From Verrucomicrobiota bacterium (GTDB lineage Bacteria; Verrucomicrobiota; Verrucomicrobiia; Limisphaerales; VHCN01): a DNA stretch of 55,026 nt. The notes under the pieces were generated by a model that searched no databases, was not told the origin of the DNA, and was given only the letters and a program-made list of their open reading frames with translations. Shown piece after piece: positions 6,980-38,785 of this stretch (positions are counted from its first letter, which is position 1; each line of letters begins with the position of its first letter). A program made the position numbers and the translations under genes. The DNA lies in the NCBI GenBank assembly GCA_016871675.1, contig VHCN01000019.1, positions 1-55,026 on the forward strand, in the 5' to 3' direction.

Positions 6980-9121
6980 ATGAAGTCTGGTCTGAAATTG
7001 GACACGATGCGCGCGCACTTTCCTTCCCGCAACGGAGTCGTGCCCCGCGTTGCCTCCGGGTTCGCCCTTGCCGTGGCGCTGGTGATTCACGCGGCCGAAC
7101 CCGTCTGGCCAAAGCTCCCCGAGCGCGACGGGCCCGTGATGATCCCCGCGCAGGAATGGCCCGCGCGGCCCGGGCCGCGCGAGGTCCGCGTGCTCGTGCA
7201 TTATCCCGGCGGCGCGCGCGCCAACGTCGGCCCCCGCACCGGCGTCTTCCTCACGCTGCACAATTGGGGCGGGACGGACTGCGTCGGCACCGCGAGCCCG
7301 CAGTCGCTCGCGCGGGAGTTCGACGTGATCGCGGTCTGCGTGAACTACCTCCAGAGCGGAAAGAAGGAGTCCATGGACGACCGCGAGCCTTACGACTTCG
7401 GCTGGCTTCAAGGGCTCGACGCGCTGCGGGCGCTGTGGTTCGTGTTCAGCGAGCTCGATTCCGCGAAGGTTCCGTTCGCGCGCGGCCGCATATTCGCCAC
7501 GGGCGGATCCGGCGGCGGCAACGTCACGCTCATGGCGAACAAGCTCGCGCCGCGCACGTTCGCATGTGTCGTGGACATGTGCGGGATGAAGAAACTGAGC
7601 GACGACATCGCGTTCAACATCCCCGGCGGCAGCTCACTCGATGCGCGTTGGAGCCGCGATCCGGCGAGCGCAAGCTTCCTCGCGCCCGGCGCGCAGGAGA
7701 TTCGATTCGCCGGCCATCCGGCGCACCTCGCGGAGATGAAGCGGCTCGGCAACAGGACGAAAATCATCTCGGTGCACGGAGACGAGGACACGACGTGCCC
7801 CTTTGCGGACGCGATCGAACTGGCCGCGAACATGAAGCGCGCGGGCCTGGATTTCACCGCCGAGTGGGTGACGAAGGCGCGGCTCGACGGCAAGGTCTTC
7901 ACCAGCGCGGGCCACTCGCTGGGGAATCGCACGCTGATCCCCGGCCATGTCGCGGGCCGTTGGTTGCTCACCACGAGCCCCGAGGCGGTCGAGCGACGGA
8001 CGCCTTCCGATTTCGAGCGCCGTGATGAAGTGCGCTACGTGACGGGCGACGGCGTTTTCGTCGTGAGTTACGCGCGTGGATTTCCAGTCGGCCGGTTCGA
8101 GCCGGCGGCGCCGCCGCCGGCTTACACGAATCACTTCGCGCTCCTTCAAGTCGCCGGGACTGACGGGGGGATGTTCACCGCGAAGTCCGCAGGCGACTGG
8201 GAGGCGCGGCGTCGGCACACGCTCGCCCACATGGAACGGGTGATGGGGTCCTTGCCCAACCCCGCCACGCGCGTGCCGCTCGACGTGAAAGTTTACGAGG
8301 AAGTGACGCTCGAAGGCGGACTCGTCCGGCGCAAGCTGAGCTTTCAAAGCGACGTGTCCGACCGTGTGGCCGCGTATCTGTTCCTCCCGGGAACCGACGT
8401 TGGCGCGAGGATGCCGGCTGTCCTTTGCCTGCAACAGACCACGCAGGCCGGCAAGGCCGAACCGGCCGGTCTTGCGGGTGATCCCACCTTGCACTACGCG
8501 CTGCACCTCGCACGCCGCGGTTTTGTGACGCTCGCGCCCGACTACCCCGGCTTCGGTGATTCCAAATTCGATTTTGCGTCCGGATCGGGCCGTCATTACG
8601 CCAGCGGATCGATCAAGGCCGTCTGGGACAACGTGCGCGCGGTGGACCTGCTTGAGTCCCTCCCTGGTGTGGACGCAGAGCGCATCGGCGTGATCGGTCA
8701 CTCGCTGGGCGGGCACAACGCCATTTTCACGGCCGCGTTTGAACCGCGCCTGCGGGTGGTCGTGTCCAGTTGCGGCTTCACCACATTCACCAAGGACGAC
8801 ATGCCGAGCTGGTCGGGTCCGCGCTACATGCCGCGCATCGGGACCCTGTTCGGCAACGATCCGGCGAAGGTGCCGTTTGATTTTCCGGAGGTGGTGGCTG
8901 CGCTGGCGCCGCGCCCGTTCCTGGCCTGTGCTGCGGAGTTTGACAATGATTTCGACGCCGGAGGTGTGCGCGAAGTGATGGCGGCGGCGCGCGCGATTTA
9001 CGCGTTGCACCGAGCCGATGGAAACATCGACGCTCGGTATCCGAGGACACCACATTCCTTCCCGGAGGAGGCGCGTCAGGCGGCGTATGAGTTTCTCGAC
9101 CGGCACCTAGGGAAACGATGA
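6980..9121 (+). CDS. Secreted protein with two alpha/beta hydrolase domains
   Basis: 713 residues. An N-terminal hydrophobic segment (about residues 25-38, ending in HAAEPVW) looks like a signal peptide. The first hydrolase domain (about 45-330) has a nucleophile elbow GGSGGGN near 175 and a late GDEDTTCPF stretch. The second (about 380-713) has GHSLGGHN near 575 and a C-terminal His in RTPHSFPEEA, giving a plausible Ser-Asp-His triad. The second domain is clearly related to the single-domain protein at 16334-17446, sharing VWDN-R--DLLESLP and GHSLGGHN. Likely an extracytoplasmic esterase or acylhydrolase acting on plant-type polysaccharides; the substrate is unknown. It begins 10 bases after the WecA-like gene. 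Confidence 0.78.
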   Translation: MKSGLKLDTMRAHFPSRNGVVPRVASGFALAVALVIHAAEPVWPKLPERDGPVMIPAQEWPARPGPREVRVLVHYPGGARANVGPRTGVFLTLHNWGGTDCVGTASPQSLAREFDVIAVCVNYLQSGKKESMDDREPYDFGWLQGLDALRALWFVFSELDSAKVPFARGRIFATGGSGGGNVTLMANKLAPRTFACVVDMCGMKKLSDDIAFNIPGGSSLDARWSRDPASASFLAPGAQEIRFAGHPAHLAEMKRLGNRTKIISVHGDEDTTCPFADAIELAANMKRAGLDFTAEWVTKARLDGKVFTSAGHSLGNRTLIPGHVAGRWLLTTSPEAVERRTPSDFERRDEVRYVTGDGVFVVSYARGFPVGRFEPAAPPPAYTNHFALLQVAGTDGGMFTAKSAGDWEARRRHTLAHMERVMGSLPNPATRVPLDVKVYEEVTLEGGLVRRKLSFQSDVSDRVAAYLFLPGTDVGARMPAVLCLQQTTQAGKAEPAGLAGDPTLHYALHLARRGFVTLAPDYPGFGDSKFDFASGSGRHYASGSIKAVWDNVRAVDLLESLPGVDAERIGVIGHSLGGHNAIFTAAFEPRLRVVVSSCGFTTFTKDDMPSWSGPRYMPRIGTLFGNDPAKVPFDFPEVVAALAPRPFLACAAEFDNDFDAGGVREVMAAARAIYALHRADGNIDARYPRTPHSFPEEARQAAYEFLDRHLGKR

Positions 9122-32121: not shown

Positions 32122-32154
32122 GAAATCCTCGGGGCGGTCGAAAGCGGAAGCGGG

Positions 32155-32236
32155 TGCGGATAGCAGGACTTGAACCTGCACGCCTTACGGCACTACCACC
32201 TCAAAGTAGCGCGTCTGCCAATTCCGCCATATCCGC
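32155..32236 (-). tRNA. tRNA-Leu (anticodon GAG)
   Basis: Minus-strand class II cloverleaf: acceptor GCGGATA/TATCCGC with discriminator A, D arm TGGCGGAATTGGCAGACGC, anticodon stem CTACT/GGTAG around TTGAGGT (anticodon GAG), short long-arm, T arm GCAGG-TTCAAGT-CCTGC. It lies about 100 bases downstream of prcA on the same strand. Confidence 0.94.
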
Positions 32237-32337
32237 AACGGCGCGGAGAAAGTGCCCACTGCCTCCGGCTCGCGCAAGTTCTATTTGGCCGGAGTGGACG
32301 ACGGTTGAATCGGGCGAAGCCAAACCGCCAATGCGCG

Positions 32338-33081
32338 TCACGCCAGGCCAACGTCCTGCGCGGTGAGACTCGTGTATCGGGTTGCGCGGGTGCCCGACCG
32401 CGCGAGCCAGCCCGCTTCGAGGACTTTTCCCTTCATCCCTGCACGCACGCCGTCCCGCCGCTCGGACTCGGCTGGCAGCCCCCCATCGAACGTGTGCCCG
32501 GCCGTCACGCACCACCACGCCTGCAGGAGCGTGTCCACCACCGCCGCGCGGTCGGACTTGCCCGCGAGCGCGTCCGAGAGCCACTTCTGCGCGGCGGACT
32601 CGGCTTCGGCGGTGCTCGCAGCCACGTGCACGCCGCCATGTTCGATGGTGAAAGCCCCGTCGAAATGCAGCCGGTAGAACGAATCCTCCGCGGGCGCGGC
32701 GCCGAGTTCGGCCAGCACCAGTTCGACAAGAGACGGCGCCGCGTAAATCTGCTCGAAGTTCGTCTTGAGTTGCGGGCTCAATCCGAAGCTCACAAGCCGC
32801 CGCATGCTCACGTCCTCCGGCGCTCGCGTGAAAGCTTCGAGATGCGCGGCATCAATCGCGGCCTGCCGGACTCTCTCGATGTCCGCGGGATGGCCGAGCC
32901 CCGCGAGCGCGTGACGGTCAAACAGCTCGAACACCTTCGAACGCCCGGTGCCGACGCCGAGCAGCAGGATGCCGTCCGCGAGGCTCGCGGCGAACACGGG
33001 CGAGCCGCCCTTGAGCTGTTCGCGGACGTATTCGCGCCGGTTCGCGACGGCTTCGAGCCAGCGATAGGGTTCCTCGGTCAT
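32338..33081 (-). CDS. prcA: 20S proteasome alpha subunit
   Basis: 247 residues from the ATG at 33081, whose ATGA overlaps the prcB stop (an alternative ATG at 33093 overlaps by 16 bases). The alpha-type N-terminal helix is followed by FAASLADGILLLGVGTGRSKVFELFDRHALAGLGHPADIERVRQAA, the usual alpha-subunit pattern with a non-catalytic N-terminus. It resembles mycobacterial PrcA in order of elements (Y/F-ELFDR-, AAGK-like, then LV--ELG---ED--YR--FDG). Alpha rings gate the 20S core and bind the ATPase. Last gene of the proteasome run. Confidence 0.9.
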   Translation of the reverse strand: MTEEPYRWLEAVANRREYVREQLKGGSPVFAASLADGILLLGVGTGRSKVFELFDRHALAGLGHPADIERVRQAAIDAAHLEAFTRAPEDVSMRRLVSFGLSPQLKTNFEQIYAAPSLVELVLAELGAAPAEDSFYRLHFDGAFTIEHGGVHVAASTAEAESAAQKWLSDALAGKSDRAAVVDTLLQAWWCVTAGHTFDGGLPAESERRDGVRAGMKGKVLEAGWLARSGTRATRYTSLTAQDVGLA

Positions 33082-33851
33082 TGCCTCAGCCACTCCGCTT
33101 GTTGTTCGTCGCTCACGGTTTCGACCCCGGACGCGCGCAGGACCTTGATCGTCGCGAACGTCTCCGCGCCGGGATTCACGCCGCCCGTCGCCGCGTCGAG
33201 CTCGGACGCCGTCATCAGCAGCCGCAACGCGAATCGCACCGCTTCTTCGAGATTCATCTGCGACGGACCCGGCCGGCCGTAACGCTCCTGAAAACTCAGC
33301 ACGCTCCGGATGGTCCCCGAACCCGAGCCGCTGGCCGCGTGGCCGACCGCCTGAAACTGCGCGCCGAGCGGGTCGTAAAAGTAAATCTGCGGTTTGGGAG
33401 GCGTCGCGTGCGCGTCCACGCCGGCGAAAAGCGGCACGACCACGCCGACGCCCTGCATCGTCATGGGTAGATTGTCACGGAGCAACCGCGCGAGCGCGCG
33501 GACCTTCGCGGGAAGGCTGAGCGATTGGAGCTGGCTGCGCCGGTAATACTCGAACGACGTTTGCAGCACGCGCGCCATTTCGAACGCGGTTGCAGGCACG
33601 CCCGCAATGGCGAGCAACGACGTGGCGTCGAGTTCGAGAACCTTGTCCACCCGGTCGGTGACGATGACGTTGCCCGCGGTGGCGCGCCGGTCGCCAGCCA
33701 TCAGGACGCCCCCGGCGAAGTGAAACGCAAAGACCGTCGTGGCCTGCGTCTGCGCAGGAGCCGCGTTCGATGCGTCGGCGCGAACCGGCGCGAGATTGTG
33801 GCTCGCGAGCAGGGAGACGAAATCGCCGGCGATCGGAGTTTGCGCGCTCAT
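33078..33851 (-). CDS. prcB: 20S proteasome beta subunit (catalytic)
   Basis: 257 residues. A propeptide of 37 residues precedes the likely processing site A37/T38, giving a mature N-terminal threonine in TTVFAFHFAGGVLMAGDRRAT. The Asp of GDRRA, the basic residue in VDKVLELD and the late SGSGS stretch complete the beta-type active site. The chain then continues with YDPLGAQFQAVGHAASGSGSGTIRSVL and FALRLLMTASELDAATGG. The beta rings degrade unfolded substrate. ATGA overlap with the modifier gene upstream (start 33851 vs stop 33848) and with prcA downstream. Confidence 0.93.
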   Translation of the reverse strand: MSAQTPIAGDFVSLLASHNLAPVRADASNAAPAQTQATTVFAFHFAGGVLMAGDRRATAGNVIVTDRVDKVLELDATSLLAIAGVPATAFEMARVLQTSFEYYRRSQLQSLSLPAKVRALARLLRDNLPMTMQGVGVVVPLFAGVDAHATPPKPQIYFYDPLGAQFQAVGHAASGSGSGTIRSVLSFQERYGRPGPSQMNLEEAVRFALRLLMTASELDAATGGVNPGAETFATIKVLRASGVETVSDEQQAEWLRQ

Positions 33852-34021
33852 TCGCCTGTGCGCTGCCGGTAGCGTTTGGCCTGGTCGGGGTCCACCTTGC
33901 GCATGCGCTTGAGGAGTTCCTCCACGTTCGGTTTGTCCACCTTCGGCTCCTTCGGGCCGTCACCGCCGCCACCGGGGTTGCCCGGCGCGACCGGCCGCGT
34001 CTTCTGGGATTGGTCGGGCAT
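33848..34021 (-). CDS. Pup/UBact-type ubiquitin-like modifier, 57 residues
   Basis: Starting at the ATG at 34021, the protein opens MPDQSQKTRPVAPGNPGGGG, continues with DGPKEPKVDKPNVEELLKRM and ends RKVDPDQAKRYRQRTGE. It is small, disordered at the N-terminus, with a C-terminal amphipathic helix and a final Gly-Glu. In Pup the C-terminal Glu (or Gln, deamidated by Dop) is the residue joined to substrate lysines; here Glu is encoded directly. The RYRQR(S/T)G(E/Q) ending is that of UBact, the Pup homologue described in several Gram-negative phyla. It starts three bases after the dop stop and overlaps prcB by ATGA, so it is co-translated with the core. Confidence 0.92.
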   Translation of the reverse strand: MPDQSQKTRPVAPGNPGGGGDGPKEPKVDKPNVEELLKRMRKVDPDQAKRYRQRTGE

Positions 34022-34024
34022 AAC

Positions 34025-35563
34025 TTAGCGCGAACCTAGCTTTCGAAGGCCGATCACGCCACGCAAATCATCCGGCGCGCGCGCCGCGTCCACGGCTTGA
34101 CGGTAGCGCAGCACGTCCTCCGGCTCGAAGAGGTCGAGCAGCGAAATCTTCACCAATCCGTGATCGTCGGCGAGCGTGAGGTGGTCCCACTGCGCGTTCT
34201 CGACGGCCTCGGCAAATTTCTGGATGCACTTGCCGCGCACATACGCGCGCGTCGTCAGCGGCGGCTCGAACACGGCGCGTTGCACGATCGCTTCGTCGGG
34301 GACGCCGCGCATCGCGCCGGCCTGTTCGAGCCCGAAGTAGAGCCCCTCGACCGCGTCGAGCCGGTGGTATTCGAGATCGAGCGCCTGCACCCACGGGTCG
34401 TCATCCGCGACGCGCTGCGCGGCTTGGAATTCGCGGATGAGCGCGAGCTTCGCGACCCAATCGAGCCGGTCGCGGCAGCGCATGAAATCGGCTTCGAGGT
34501 CGTTCAGCACGGTTTCCCAATCCGCGATGACCGATTGCCTTTCCGCGGACGACAGGTCGCAAAGCGCCTTCACTGCGGCGAGATACTCGCGCTGCACGGC
34601 GAGCGCGGTCGAATGGCGCCGGCCGGCCAGCTTCACCTCCCACTTGAACTCCGGGTCGCGCGAAATCGCCGTGAGCGCGCGCAGCGGGTCCGAGAGCTGC
34701 GGCCACGCGCGGCGCGGGTCGCGCACGAGCGCCTCGAGCACGAGCGCGGTCGCGCCCGCTTTCAGCCTCGTGGCGAAGGGCGACATGTTCGCGTCGCCGA
34801 GGATGACGTGGAAGCGCCGCCAGTGCTGCGGGTTCGCGTGCGGCTCGTCGCGCGTGTTGATCAGCGGGCGGCGCTGCATCGTGTCCACGCTTTGCAGCTC
34901 GCTGAAGAAGTCGCCCCGCTGCGAAATCTGGAAATGCGGTGAGAGGAGGCGATCCTCGGCTTCGATGGCAAACTTGCCCGCGCCGGCGAAGACCTGCCGC
35001 GTGACGAGGAAAGCCTGCATCGCCTGGGCGAGCGTGTCCCATTCGAGCGAGCGCGGCAGGAGATAGTTCTCGTGGCAGCCGTAGCTGTGGCCGCGGAAGT
35101 CCGTGTTGTTCTTGTAAATCCGGACGGTCGCGCCGCGCTGTTCGGAGAGCCGCTCGGCGCACTGCATCACGATGCGCTCGCCCGCGCGGTCGTGCGCGGC
35201 GATTTCGTCGAGCGTGCTGCACTCGGGCGTGCAGTATTCGGGATGCGCGTGGTCGTTGTAGAATCGCCCGCCGTTGCCGAGCGCGAGGTCGCTTTTGATC
35301 TCGGCGAAGGACAGTTCGCGGTGGGCATCCTGCTCCACGTATCCCGCCTCGTCCGTGTCCTGCCGCAGCGCCTCGACGTGGAAGCCGCGCGCGTCCGCAT
35401 GCGGGTCCTCGGTCGCGTAGTCCCAGCGCATCCGCACGCCGGGTTCGACCGCGCTGCGCACGAGTGCGATGGACTCGGCGACGACATCGAGTTCCTCCGC
35501 GCCGTCCCGCGCGATGCCGTATTCGGTCTCGATGCCGAAGAGGATAGTGACTCGTTCAAACAC
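34025..35563 (-). CDS. dop: Pup/UBact deamidase-depupylase (Dop)
   Basis: 512 residues of the carboxylate-amine ligase (glutamine-synthetase-like) fold. Motifs: GIETEYG at 10-16, HAHPEY at 105-110, YKNNTDFRGHSYGCHENY at 150-167, INTRDEPHA at 235-243 and FHVILGDANM at 251-260. It carries the Dop-loop type segment MRWDYATEDPHADARGF (45-61) that is absent from PafA ligases, so Dop is the better call. The same family ligates (PafA) or removes (Dop) Pup. ATG at 35563; the C-terminus ends KLGSR. With Pup ending in Glu, deamidation is not needed, so depupylation would be its main role. Confidence 0.88.
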   Translation of the reverse strand: MFERVTILFGIETEYGIARDGAEELDVVAESIALVRSAVEPGVRMRWDYATEDPHADARGFHVEALRQDTDEAGYVEQDAHRELSFAEIKSDLALGNGGRFYNDHAHPEYCTPECSTLDEIAAHDRAGERIVMQCAERLSEQRGATVRIYKNNTDFRGHSYGCHENYLLPRSLEWDTLAQAMQAFLVTRQVFAGAGKFAIEAEDRLLSPHFQISQRGDFFSELQSVDTMQRRPLINTRDEPHANPQHWRRFHVILGDANMSPFATRLKAGATALVLEALVRDPRRAWPQLSDPLRALTAISRDPEFKWEVKLAGRRHSTALAVQREYLAAVKALCDLSSAERQSVIADWETVLNDLEADFMRCRDRLDWVAKLALIREFQAAQRVADDDPWVQALDLEYHRLDAVEGLYFGLEQAGAMRGVPDEAIVQRAVFEPPLTTRAYVRGKCIQKFAEAVENAQWDHLTLADDHGLVKISLLDLFEPEDVLRYRQAVDAARAPDDLRGVIGLRKLGSR

Positions 35564-35610
35564 TGTGGCTTGCTGTATGCGTCAGTTGTTACGACTGTCT
35601 CTCGCAAGGC

Positions 35611-35838
35611 TTAGATCCGAATCGAGTCATCGGGTTCGCAGATAACCTTTCCCGTAACAGGTCTGACACTCTTTCGACCCTCCGCATTTTTGCAGGCTTG
35701 GATAGAACTGCTCAACGACTCTGCAAGCGCCTCAAAGAAGTCTTGCTCCACTCCAGTGCCGTGACATTCGTTGCACTTGCCGTTTCCACCCCAAGCTTCG
35801 CTGACAAAATCGCAGTCAGGGCAATGTTCGATAGCCAT
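35611..35838 (-). CDS. Small zinc-ribbon protein between arc and dop
   Basis: 75 residues with two CxxC knuckles: HCPDCDF near residue 5 and CNECHGTG near residue 22, like a DnaJ-type or rubredoxin-like ribbon. The remainder (AEGRKSVRPVTGKVICEPDD) is uncharacterised. Its base composition is clearly lower in GC than the arc and dop genes on either side. Gaps of 62 and 47 bases separate it from them. Unknown function; may be an accessory subunit or an unrelated insertion. Confidence 0.65.
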   Translation of the reverse strand: MAIEHCPDCDFVSEAWGGNGKCNECHGTGVEQDFFEALAESLSSSIQACKNAEGRKSVRPVTGKVICEPDDSIRI

Positions 35839-35900
35839 TGTCAGTCCTCATCTGCAGATTCAATTTGTTTCGCCTTCTGATACCGTCGGCAGACCAGGCG

Positions 35901-37601
35901 TCACACCACCCCGCTCGTCTCGACCTTGCGCGGGCGAACGGGGCCGAGCTTGACTACGTTCTCGGGATCGAAGTCCGTCAGCTTGAGCCAGTCCTCGGTG
36001 AGGTCGGTGGCGGGGAAGAGGTCGTTCTCCTCGTGCTCGCGGCGCAGCGCGGTGACGAGGTCTTCGCGCGCGATGTGCGTCTCGGCCTTGGTCTCGATGC
36101 TGCGCTTGATGGCGAGGCTCTTGGCGCGTTCGACGACGGCGGCGATGATCGCGCCGCTCGCGAGGTCGCCGCGATACAGCACGTCGCGCCGCCCGCTGCG
36201 GTAGATGACTTCGAGGAATTCGTTCTCCGGCCTGTGCGCGAAGTGCTCCTCGGTGATGGCTTCGGCGAGCGCGGATTTCGGCTCGGCGAGCGGCAGCGAT
36301 TCGCGCAGGTAGATTTCGTAGATGGCTTTGGCGCCGGGGCGGTCGGGGCGCTTGACGCGAATCTTCCTGTCTATGCGGCCGGGCCGCAGGATGGCCGGGT
36401 CAATCAGATCCGCGCGGTTCGAGGCGAGGATGACGACGACGTTCTGCAGGACTTCGATGCCGTCCATCTCCGTGCAGAACATCGGCACGAGGGTGCTGAG
36501 GATGCTGTGGTAGCGGCCCGCGCGGCGCGTGCCGAGGATGCTCTCGGCCTCGTCAATGAAGAGGAACGCCAGCGCGCCGTCCTTCGCGCGCTCGCGGCAC
36601 TGCGCGAAGAGGTCGCGGACCTGCCGCTCGCTTTCGCCGACCCACATGTTCAGGATCTCCGGCCCCTTCACGTGCAGGAAAAACTCGGGATGATCCACGC
36701 CGGTCTGCGACTTGACCTGCTGGCGCAGGTTGTAGGCGGTGGCCTTGCCGAGCAGCGTCTTGCCGCAACCGGGCGGGCCGTGGAGCAGGAAGCCCTTCGG
36801 CACATGGTGGTCGAAGCGCTTGAACAGGTCGCGGTGCAGGAAGGGAAGCTCGATGGTCTCGCGGATGGCCTGCACCGCCTCGTCCTGCCCGCCGATGGCC
36901 GACCACGGCAGCTCGGCGACGGTTTCGAGCGAGCGTTCGATGCGCTTGCCGACGCCGATGACTTCGAGCGCGACGCGCTGGTTCACGTCGAGGCGCACGT
37001 CCATGCCGGGCTTGAGCTTCTCCTTCGTGAGCAACGCCGAGCGTTGGATGACGGAGTTGGTGATGCCCGCCTCCTGCCCGATGCGGATGCGGCCGTCGGA
37101 GAGCAACTCATCCACGCGCACGATGGGGCCGTTGCGGTCGAAGCCGAGCGGGCGGACGACGGCGAAGGCTTCGTTGCAGAGCACGCGCTGCCCGACTTGC
37201 AGGCTCGAGAGCGGCACAGCGAGGTCCACTTTGCAGACGTAGTCCATCCCGCCGAGGCAGACTTGCGCCATCTGCGGCTCGACTGCGGCGAGAAACGTGC
37301 CGACGCGAAACGCGGGCAAACGCAGCGCTTCGATGGCTTTGTCCATCTTCTCCAAAGCCTGCCGGGCTTGATCGTTCATCTCCTCCACGTCCGCGATGCG
37401 TTCGCGCAGATACACGAGGTCCATGAGCGACGAGTGGCGCGGCGGGAGCTTGCTGGCGATGAGGTCCACGAGCTGGAGCGTGGAGAGTTTTTCGAGGTCC
37501 TCGCGCGGCAGAAGGTCCTCCAGCGGCGGCAGCCCCTTGGGGTTTTCGGCGGATGACTTGTCCGCGGCGGGCGGGGCTCCCTTCTTCCTTTGCTCAGCCA
37601 T
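35901..37601 (-). CDS. arc: Proteasomal AAA+ ATPase (ARC/Mpa)
   Basis: 566 residues from the ATG at 37601; the reading frame stays open upstream but that part is not protein-like. Order: low-complexity N-tail, coiled coil (about 55-95, the Pup/UBact receptor helix), two OB domains (about 97-225), AAA+ domain with Walker A GPPGCGKT (275-282), pore loop NMWVGE (318-323), Walker B LFIDEAES (347-354) and NRADLIDPAILRPGRIDR (395-412). It unfolds tagged substrates and feeds them to the 20S core. The C-terminus ends VETSGVV, lacking the usual Gln-Tyr-Leu or HbYX tail that opens the alpha-ring gate. Confidence 0.93.
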   Translation of the reverse strand: MAEQRKKGAPPAADKSSAENPKGLPPLEDLLPREDLEKLSTLQLVDLIASKLPPRHSSLMDLVYLRERIADVEEMNDQARQALEKMDKAIEALRLPAFRVGTFLAAVEPQMAQVCLGGMDYVCKVDLAVPLSSLQVGQRVLCNEAFAVVRPLGFDRNGPIVRVDELLSDGRIRIGQEAGITNSVIQRSALLTKEKLKPGMDVRLDVNQRVALEVIGVGKRIERSLETVAELPWSAIGGQDEAVQAIRETIELPFLHRDLFKRFDHHVPKGFLLHGPPGCGKTLLGKATAYNLRQQVKSQTGVDHPEFFLHVKGPEILNMWVGESERQVRDLFAQCRERAKDGALAFLFIDEAESILGTRRAGRYHSILSTLVPMFCTEMDGIEVLQNVVVILASNRADLIDPAILRPGRIDRKIRVKRPDRPGAKAIYEIYLRESLPLAEPKSALAEAITEEHFAHRPENEFLEVIYRSGRRDVLYRGDLASGAIIAAVVERAKSLAIKRSIETKAETHIAREDLVTALRREHEENDLFPATDLTEDWLKLTDFDPENVVKLGPVRPRKVETSGVV

Positions 37602-37780: not shown

Positions 37781-38785
37781 CTACTGCGCGTAGTTCCGCA
37801 CAATCCCCTGCGCTGCGGCGAGGACGCGCTCGCGCAACTCGGACGGCTGCACGACTTCGACACCGCCGCCCCAGCCGAGAATCCAGCGCTCGATCTCGAC
37901 CAGGCTCGAGAGCTTGAGCCGCAGTTCGAGCGAGCCGTCTTTCAGTTCGCGCAATTCCTGCGAGGGATGCCACCGTTTCTCGCGCACGTAGTCTGCGACG
38001 GCGGCGTTGAACCGCAATACCACCTCGAACTCCCCCTCGGCCGAGTGGACGCCGAAGCTCGATTCGAGCAGCTTGGCGACGGAGAACTTGGCGGGTCGGG
38101 TGAACTTCTTGCCGGTGGCGCGGACTTCCCTCACCCGCGCGGGCACGAACGTGCGCTGGGCTTTCCGCAGGTGGTCGTAGGCGAACAGATACCACTCGCC
38201 GTTGATGTTCGCGAGGTGCCACGGGTCCACGACGCGCTTCTCGATGTCGCGCCGGCCGGGCTTTCGATATGTGATCTCGATCTGCTCGTGCTTGGCCGCG
38301 GCCTTGGCGATGGCGTCGAAGACCTCGAGGTTGAGCACGGGTTGCGCGCTCGTGCGGAAGGACACCGTGGCGTCCCAGTCCGCGAGGTGCAGCGAGATGG
38401 TGTCCGGCAGCGACGAGGCCATCTTGCCGAAGGCGCTCTTGAGCGGGCGCTCGAAGTTGGTGCCGCGGTATTGTTGCAGGGCCTTTTCCGCCACGAGGAG
38501 CGCGAACAGTTCGCCCTCGGTGATCTGCAGCGTGGGAAAGGAGCCGACTTCCTCCGTGTAGTGGTAGCCCCAGCGGCTGCTGTCGTATTCGAGCGGAAGC
38601 ATCAGCCGGTCGCGCATGAACTCGATGTCGCGCCCGATGGTCTTGGTGGAGACTTCCATCTCGGCGGCGAGCTTGGTGGCATTGGGAAATCCGCCGGCGC
38701 TGATGGCCTGGTGGATGCGCATCATGCGCTCGAGCGGCGGCCGGGATTGCGGCAGGGCCGGCAGGGCGCGGGACGCGGGCTTCAT
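37781..38785 (-). CDS. WYL-domain transcriptional regulator (DeoR-type HTH)
   Basis: 334 residues. An N-terminal helix-turn-helix (about 15-75, with RMMRIHQAISAGGFPNATKLA and TKTIGRDIEFMRD) is followed by a WYL domain containing NGEWYLFAYDHLRKAQRTF near 205 and a C-terminal WCX region (GGGVEVVQPSELRERVL). WYL proteins sense ligands or nucleic acids. In actinobacteria two such proteins (PafB and PafC) are encoded beside pafA and control DNA-damage genes; here one sits directly upstream of arc. Specific function is inference. Confidence 0.88.
   Translation of the reverse strand: MKPASRALPALPQSRPPLERMMRIHQAISAGGFPNATKLAAEMEVSTKTIGRDIEFMRDRLMLPLEYDSSRWGYHYTEEVGSFPTLQITEGELFALLVAEKALQQYRGTNFERPLKSAFGKMASSLPDTISLHLADWDATVSFRTSAQPVLNLEVFDAIAKAAAKHEQIEITYRKPGRRDIEKRVVDPWHLANINGEWYLFAYDHLRKAQRTFVPARVREVRATGKKFTRPAKFSVAKLLESSFGVHSAEGEFEVVLRFNAAVADYVREKRWHPSQELRELKDGSLELRLKLSSLVEIERWILGWGGGVEVVQPSELRERVLAAAQGIVRNYAQ

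Follow-up and report, generated by a model that had tools for sequence, protein, structure and literature searches.

A UBact-type Pup-proteasome operon in a verrucomicrobial genome, with the predicted ligase encoded on a separate contig

Does the genome of an uncultured verrucomicrobial bacterium encode a full pathway for tagging proteins and degrading them in a proteasome, and is that pathway of the actinobacterial Pup kind or of the UBact kind of Gram-negative bacteria? The question is raised by a gene cluster at positions 32,338 to 37,601 of contig VHCN01000019.1 (C19; 55,026 nucleotides, the whole of which is called the window here), part of a 3.6-Mb draft genome (G000) with a completeness of about 97%. 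A first-pass annotation had described the cluster as a complete Pup/UBact proteasome locus in a Gram-negative, verrucomicrobial-type genome. The UBact system was described in 2017 by Lehmann et al., a work considered here to the extent that it is cited in PMC12751074. Pup-like genes had been reported in Verrucomicrobia in 2008 (PMC2588565), and PafA/Dop homologues in this group were called sporadic in 2020 (PMC7947786); recent literature often still treats bacterial proteasomes as actinobacterial only. In our view, three parts of a UBact-type Pup-proteasome system, namely the tag, the enzyme that removes it and the complete protease, are very likely encoded in the operon, while the gene for the ligase PafA is found on contig C5 of this genome, and the biochemical steps would proceed as proposed below.

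Open reading frame (ORF) calls place six genes on the minus strand in the order claimed: ARC (35901..37601), a small zinc-ribbon-like ORF (35611..35838), dop (34025..35563), UBact (33848..34021), prcB (33078..33851) and prcA (32338..33081). The close packing from dop to prcA is also as annotated: 3 nt separate the dop stop from the UBact ATG, the UBact/prcB junction is an ATGA overlap, and the prcB stop forms a further ATGA overlap with the prcA ATG at 33081, provided that this start is used. The spacing from dop onward is operon-like. The alternative prcA start, a GTG at 33093, is less likely than ATG 33081, because the latter yields the overlap with the prcB stop and an N-terminus, MTEEPYRW, that fits the family consensus MxxxPYxW.

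The modifier, of 57 residues, matches the UBact family PF20513 (E 2.5e-23; 82 bits against a cut-off of 27.8) and the NCBIfam model NF033388 (E 3.2e-24; 84.9 bits against a cut-off of 35), in agreement with the UBact-type designation, and a Pfam search returned no match of it to the Pup family PF05639. It is also conserved between Dop and PrcB in relatives of several phyla, the very placement on which the first-pass annotation had staked its reading. Because the modifier passes both cut-offs and occupies the same position in many relatives, the ORFs are not chance occurrences. The C-terminus reads RYRQRTGE, as annotated, with Gly-Glu encoded directly. Among 77 distinct UBact homologues, 47 end in GQ and 29 in GE, the remaining sequence being truncated; on the Dop tree of the order, the end state changes at least five times, three of these changes being forced by well-supported branches. 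Since the window UBact ends in Glu, deamidation by Dop should be unneeded here, and Dop would serve as a depupylase, by analogy with Corynebacterium glutamicum (PMC3511204). A species-dependent Glu/Gln end thereby offers natural material on when Dop is needed as a deamidase. A separate observation concerns locus L133 (genome G125), where the UBact frame (6988-7134) diverges before the C-terminus and AAARIT replaces the Gly-Gln tail despite intact Dop and PrcB, as a result of a frameshift, an assembly error or loss.

Dop (512 aa, GTG start) scores 491 bits with PF03136 (Pup_ligase), and its best PDB matches are the Dop entries 4b0r and 5lrt (E 2e-98). The protein carries a Dop-loop, WDYATEDPHADARGF, and a Dop-type alpha-loop, FFSELQSVDTMQRR, and it resembles Pup-type Dop at the activity-determining alpha-loop and the His95 region. 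No PafA ligase was found in the window, and to this extent the locus is not complete as had been claimed. A second protein of the Pup_ligase family is encoded in the same genome at G000:C5:25797-27086, well inside an 87.6-kb contig and divergent from parB; it has no Dop-loop and branches with the PafAs that close the UBact operons of relatives. The missing ligase, together with a foreign-looking ORF that interrupts the operon, could point to a degenerate locus whose Dop, UBact and proteasome have ceased to work together as a tagging pathway. We judge this very improbable in view of the intact PafA within C5, with its PafA-type anatomy and its close kinship to operonic PafAs, and of the PrcB catalytic residues, all of which are intact. 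Moreover, pafA lies mostly directly after prcA in the order, yet is separated from the operon in some other genomes too.

The remaining components are those of a proteasome. PrcB (257 aa) matches PF00227 (E 5e-25), and alignment to PDB sequences sets its residue 38 on Thr1 of mature actinobacterial beta subunits, with a 37-residue propeptide before the predicted catalytic Thr38. This threonine, which had been named earlier as a possible point of failure, is invariant in 57 of 57 homologues, as are Asp54 and Lys70 (equivalents of Thr1, Asp17 and Lys33). PrcA is matched by no Pfam model and by TIGR03691 below its cut-off (E 1.6e-17; 63.8 bits against 139). It models as a 20S alpha-subunit fold: the AlphaFold2 prediction, made from an alignment of 32 sequences, has a mean predicted local distance difference test score of 93, and the closest solved structures in a Foldseek search are Mycobacterium tuberculosis 20S chains (E 4e-14). 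Lys53 of PrcA (numbered from GTG 33093) is present in 50 of the 50 sequences that cover the position.

ARC (566 aa), an Mpa-type proteasomal AAA+ ATPase, matches PF00004 (E 1.9e-30), PF17758 (E 1.1e-18) and TIGR03689 (417 bits). Its best PDB matches are the Mpa/ARC entries 5kwa and 7px9, and most of its length aligns with Mpa. The AlphaFold2 model comprises a disordered start, a coiled coil (residues 58-94), two OB domains, an AAA domain and a disordered stretch of the last eight residues. Mpa docks on the pockets of the 20S alpha-ring through a C-terminal GQYL with its penultimate tyrosine (PMC8755798). The window ARC ends in SGVV and lacks GQYL. A tyrosine-less pair, [VITM][VIL], terminates all 44 distinct UBact-type ARC C-termini, and seven further ARCs from loci without detected UBact end likewise, whereas nine of ten Pup-type ARC matches end in GQYL or GHYL and the tenth in TCDA; these figures are plain counts. 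The residues that precede the pair vary in sequence and length, while the pair itself is constant. We infer that it is a putative docking signal of UBact-type ARC, which poses the question of how a proteasomal ATPase opens the 20S gate without the tyrosine of the HbYX motif.

One set of results weighs against the assignment. The profile searches proposed in the first-pass annotation succeeded for the modifier and returned family matches for Dop, PrcA, PrcB and ARC, but the actinobacterial equivalog cut-offs are reached by none of these four, nor by PafA; Dop, for instance, scores 442 bits with TIGR03688 against a cut-off of 492.3. The TIGR03688 model was built on actinobacterial sequences. The system is therefore described as UBact-type and not placed in the actinobacterial set. 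Recent acquisition of an actinobacterial Pup-proteasome system would account for a gene order identical to that of Pup-type loci and for the actinobacterial origin of most solved homologues. It is refuted, however, by the family of the modifier, which is UBact and not the Pup of PF05639, and by the tree, which sets Dop and PafA apart from the Pup-type group (100/100); the ARC tail without GQYL and the frequency of UBact loci in the order point the same way, and we attach next to no probability to it.

In the pathway that we propose from these sequences, UBact would be translated with its terminal Glu, and PafA would use ATP to activate the side chain of this residue and couple UBact to a lysine of the target; Dop could remove it again. 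At the ARC hexamer, the coiled coils would capture UBact and the AAA ring would unfold the target, which would be threaded via the PrcA ring into the chamber and cleaved there by PrcB Thr38, released from its propeptide. Because ARC lacks the Mpa GQYL motif, docking by the C-terminal Val-Val in pockets between PrcA subunits is proposed, with PrcA Lys53 as the likely partner of the terminal carboxylate. Alternatively, the tag may be mainly regulatory, a reversible modification that leads to degradation for some targets only. Dop of Actinobacteria undoes tagging, and a regulatory role has been suggested there (PMC3511204); the verrucomicrobial order itself contains a distinct Pup-like system that occurs without any 20S. 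PrcA, PrcB and ARC are, by contrast, co-encoded with UBact in nearly all examined UBact loci, and we give a mainly regulatory tag a small chance beside the degradative UBact pathway.

How the ligase of this pathway originated is a further question. Three trees of Dop and PafA, differing in the choice of rows and columns, separate UBact-type Dop and PafA from Pup-type Dop and PafA, with support of 100/99 to 100/100; an initial tree that included divergent third-type enzymes (described below) also joins UBact Dop with UBact PafA (86/98). A constraint that holds all Dops together is rejected in the approximately unbiased (AU) test of each of the three trees (p 0.028, 0.021 and 0.006), values that are somewhat optimistic, as the system-wise grouping had been seen in the first tree before testing, and of which the last two come from trees that omit gap-rich columns, the Dop-loop included. 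No strictly fixed columns that separate the two evolutionary scenarios were found; mean substitution scores, used in their place, agree with the system-wise split. The columns in which Dops agree against PafAs are found at the alpha-loop, at His95 and near residue 440-450 (Acidothermus cellulolyticus Dop), regions reported to determine Dop/PafA activity (PMC7947786, PMC8599861). The [DE]-T motif of the alpha-loop is mostly kept in the Dops of both systems. Thr-Thr at this loop is kept in Pup ligases, whereas none of 43 UBact-type ligases has it, as counted by hand after the Dop and Pup-type rows had been removed.

Two histories would fit: two separate origins of the ligase, or a single duplication after which both enzymes adapted jointly to the tag they share. 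We lean slightly towards a single ancient Dop/PafA duplication before the UBact/Pup split, with the two paralogues within each system later converging through either gene conversion or adaptation to their common tag, because the gene order is identical in both systems, with PafA following PrcA at the same position in both kinds of locus. The Dop-loop common to both Dops fits this history, as does the location of the Dop-versus-PafA columns in the activity-setting alpha-loop and His95 region; the tree and the AU test, which reject a Dop-versus-PafA split (p 0.006-0.028), and the different ligase alpha-loops argue against it. More tentatively, the UBact branch might have derived a ligase of its own from a Dop-like depupylase, separately from the origin of the Pup ligase, with an ARC that docks on the 20S through a tyrosine-free hydrophobic pair replacing HbYX/GQYL. 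The tree thus asks whether a protein ligase has been derived twice from a hydrolase. In a search mostly outside subscription literature, no description was found of the ARC tails, the ligase alpha-loop or the system-wise Dop/PafA split, and these may be new.

UBact was detected in 69 of the 196 genomes profiled across the order for UBact and Pup_ligase, so that about one third of the sampled genomes carry the system. A Pup_ligase match is present in 80 of the 196 and, by a hand tally of the overlap, in 69 of 69 UBact genomes. The order ARC-Dop-UBact-PrcB-PrcA-PafA, judged as far as the contig of each relative extends, recurs in records of Gemmatimonadota, Latescibacterota, Armatimonadota/Chthonomonadia, Acetothermia and Nitrospirae. 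The spread among Gram-negative bacteria noted in the first-pass annotation is thus real, but "a few phyla" understates an extent that covers these groups and Verrucomicrobiota. In the family f27 (L133, L134, L141, L145), the operon is split: roughly 1.8 kb separates ARC from dop, and prcA is relocated to the pafA locus; the prcA gap of some loci is partly explained in this manner, prcA sitting near pafA in L141 and L145.

Several further loci were compared. Verrucomicrobial Dop genes, some accompanied by ARC, occur in L018, L023-L026 and L051; in the flanking DNA examined, neither UBact nor PrcB nor PafA was detected. Two candidates for tag-less systems were rejected: L056, a KSB3 locus, contains a Pup (PF05639, 7.5e-17), and the genome of L055 encodes Pup elsewhere. 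L060, a third such candidate in which UBact was not found, has a near-identical Pup C-terminus. Matches to the Pup_ligase family occur in 78 of 95 genomes of the phylum of G196, the source of the Rokubacteria locus L055; those of its loci that were read contain prcBA, Dop and PafA, which makes this phylum another Gram-negative group in which proteasome loci, apparently of Pup type, are frequent. Four genomes of the verrucomicrobial order (G186, G180, G039 and G181; L148-L151) harbor a third, divergent Pup-like locus, with an ARC-like ATPase, a Dop-like enzyme, a 57-70 residue protein ending in GG[EQ] and a PafA-like enzyme, which in L148 bears a tetratricopeptide repeat tail. The tags of L148-L150 have no family match above cut-off, and when 388 genomes of the phylum were searched for the third-type tag, only two weak partial matches emerged, which we regard as chance. 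No match to the proteasome family was found in G186, G180 and G181; G039 has a UBact system in addition to its third-type locus. These loci may be related to the planctomycete loci without a proteasome that PMC2588565 describes.

Within the window, the zinc-ribbon-like ORF (75 aa; CPDC...CNEC) between ARC and dop had been counted as part of the locus. Its sole family match is a sub-threshold Pfam hit to DnaJ_CXXCXGXG, and no homologue was found in the other 57 of the 58 order genomes searched for it or in the compared loci, which rules it out as a recognisable system component; it is specific to this genome and probably outside the tagging system. Immediately upstream of ARC, and in the same orientation, lies a gene for a helix-turn-helix (HTH)-WYL-WCX transcription regulator (37781..38785, minus strand; PF13280, E 1.3e-18; PF25583, E 2.7e-19). 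In L120 and L129, too, such a gene precedes ARC. The mycobacterial WYL proteins PafB and PafC are encoded together with pafA. The HTH-WYL-WCX gene is a possible candidate regulator of the locus. A tRNA-Leu (gag) gene (32152-32237, minus strand) lies directly downstream of prcA.

The window locus is a further case of the known UBact system. With the UBact-proteasome system of Gram-negative bacteria (Lehmann et al. 2017, as cited in PMC12751074), it shares the modifier family, the gene set, the gene order and the C-terminal Gly-Glu/Gln; it differs in that its pafA is located away from the operon, beside parB on another contig, and in the additional zinc ORF found between ARC and dop. With the actinobacterial Pup-proteasome (Mpa/ARC, Dop, Pup, PrcB, PrcA, PafA), it shares a homologous gene order, the catalytic residues, the Dop-loop and the threonine protease, but its modifier is unmatched by PF05639, its ARC terminates in a hydrophobic pair and not in GQYL, its ligase lacks the alpha-loop Thr-Thr and its proteins stay below the equivalog cut-offs. 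Finally, the proteasome-less Pup-like loci of the planctomycete Rhodopirellula and of Plesiocystis (PMC2588565) likewise combine a Dop/PafA-like enzyme with a small Gly-Glu/Gln tag, to which the window locus adds both 20S subunits and ARC.

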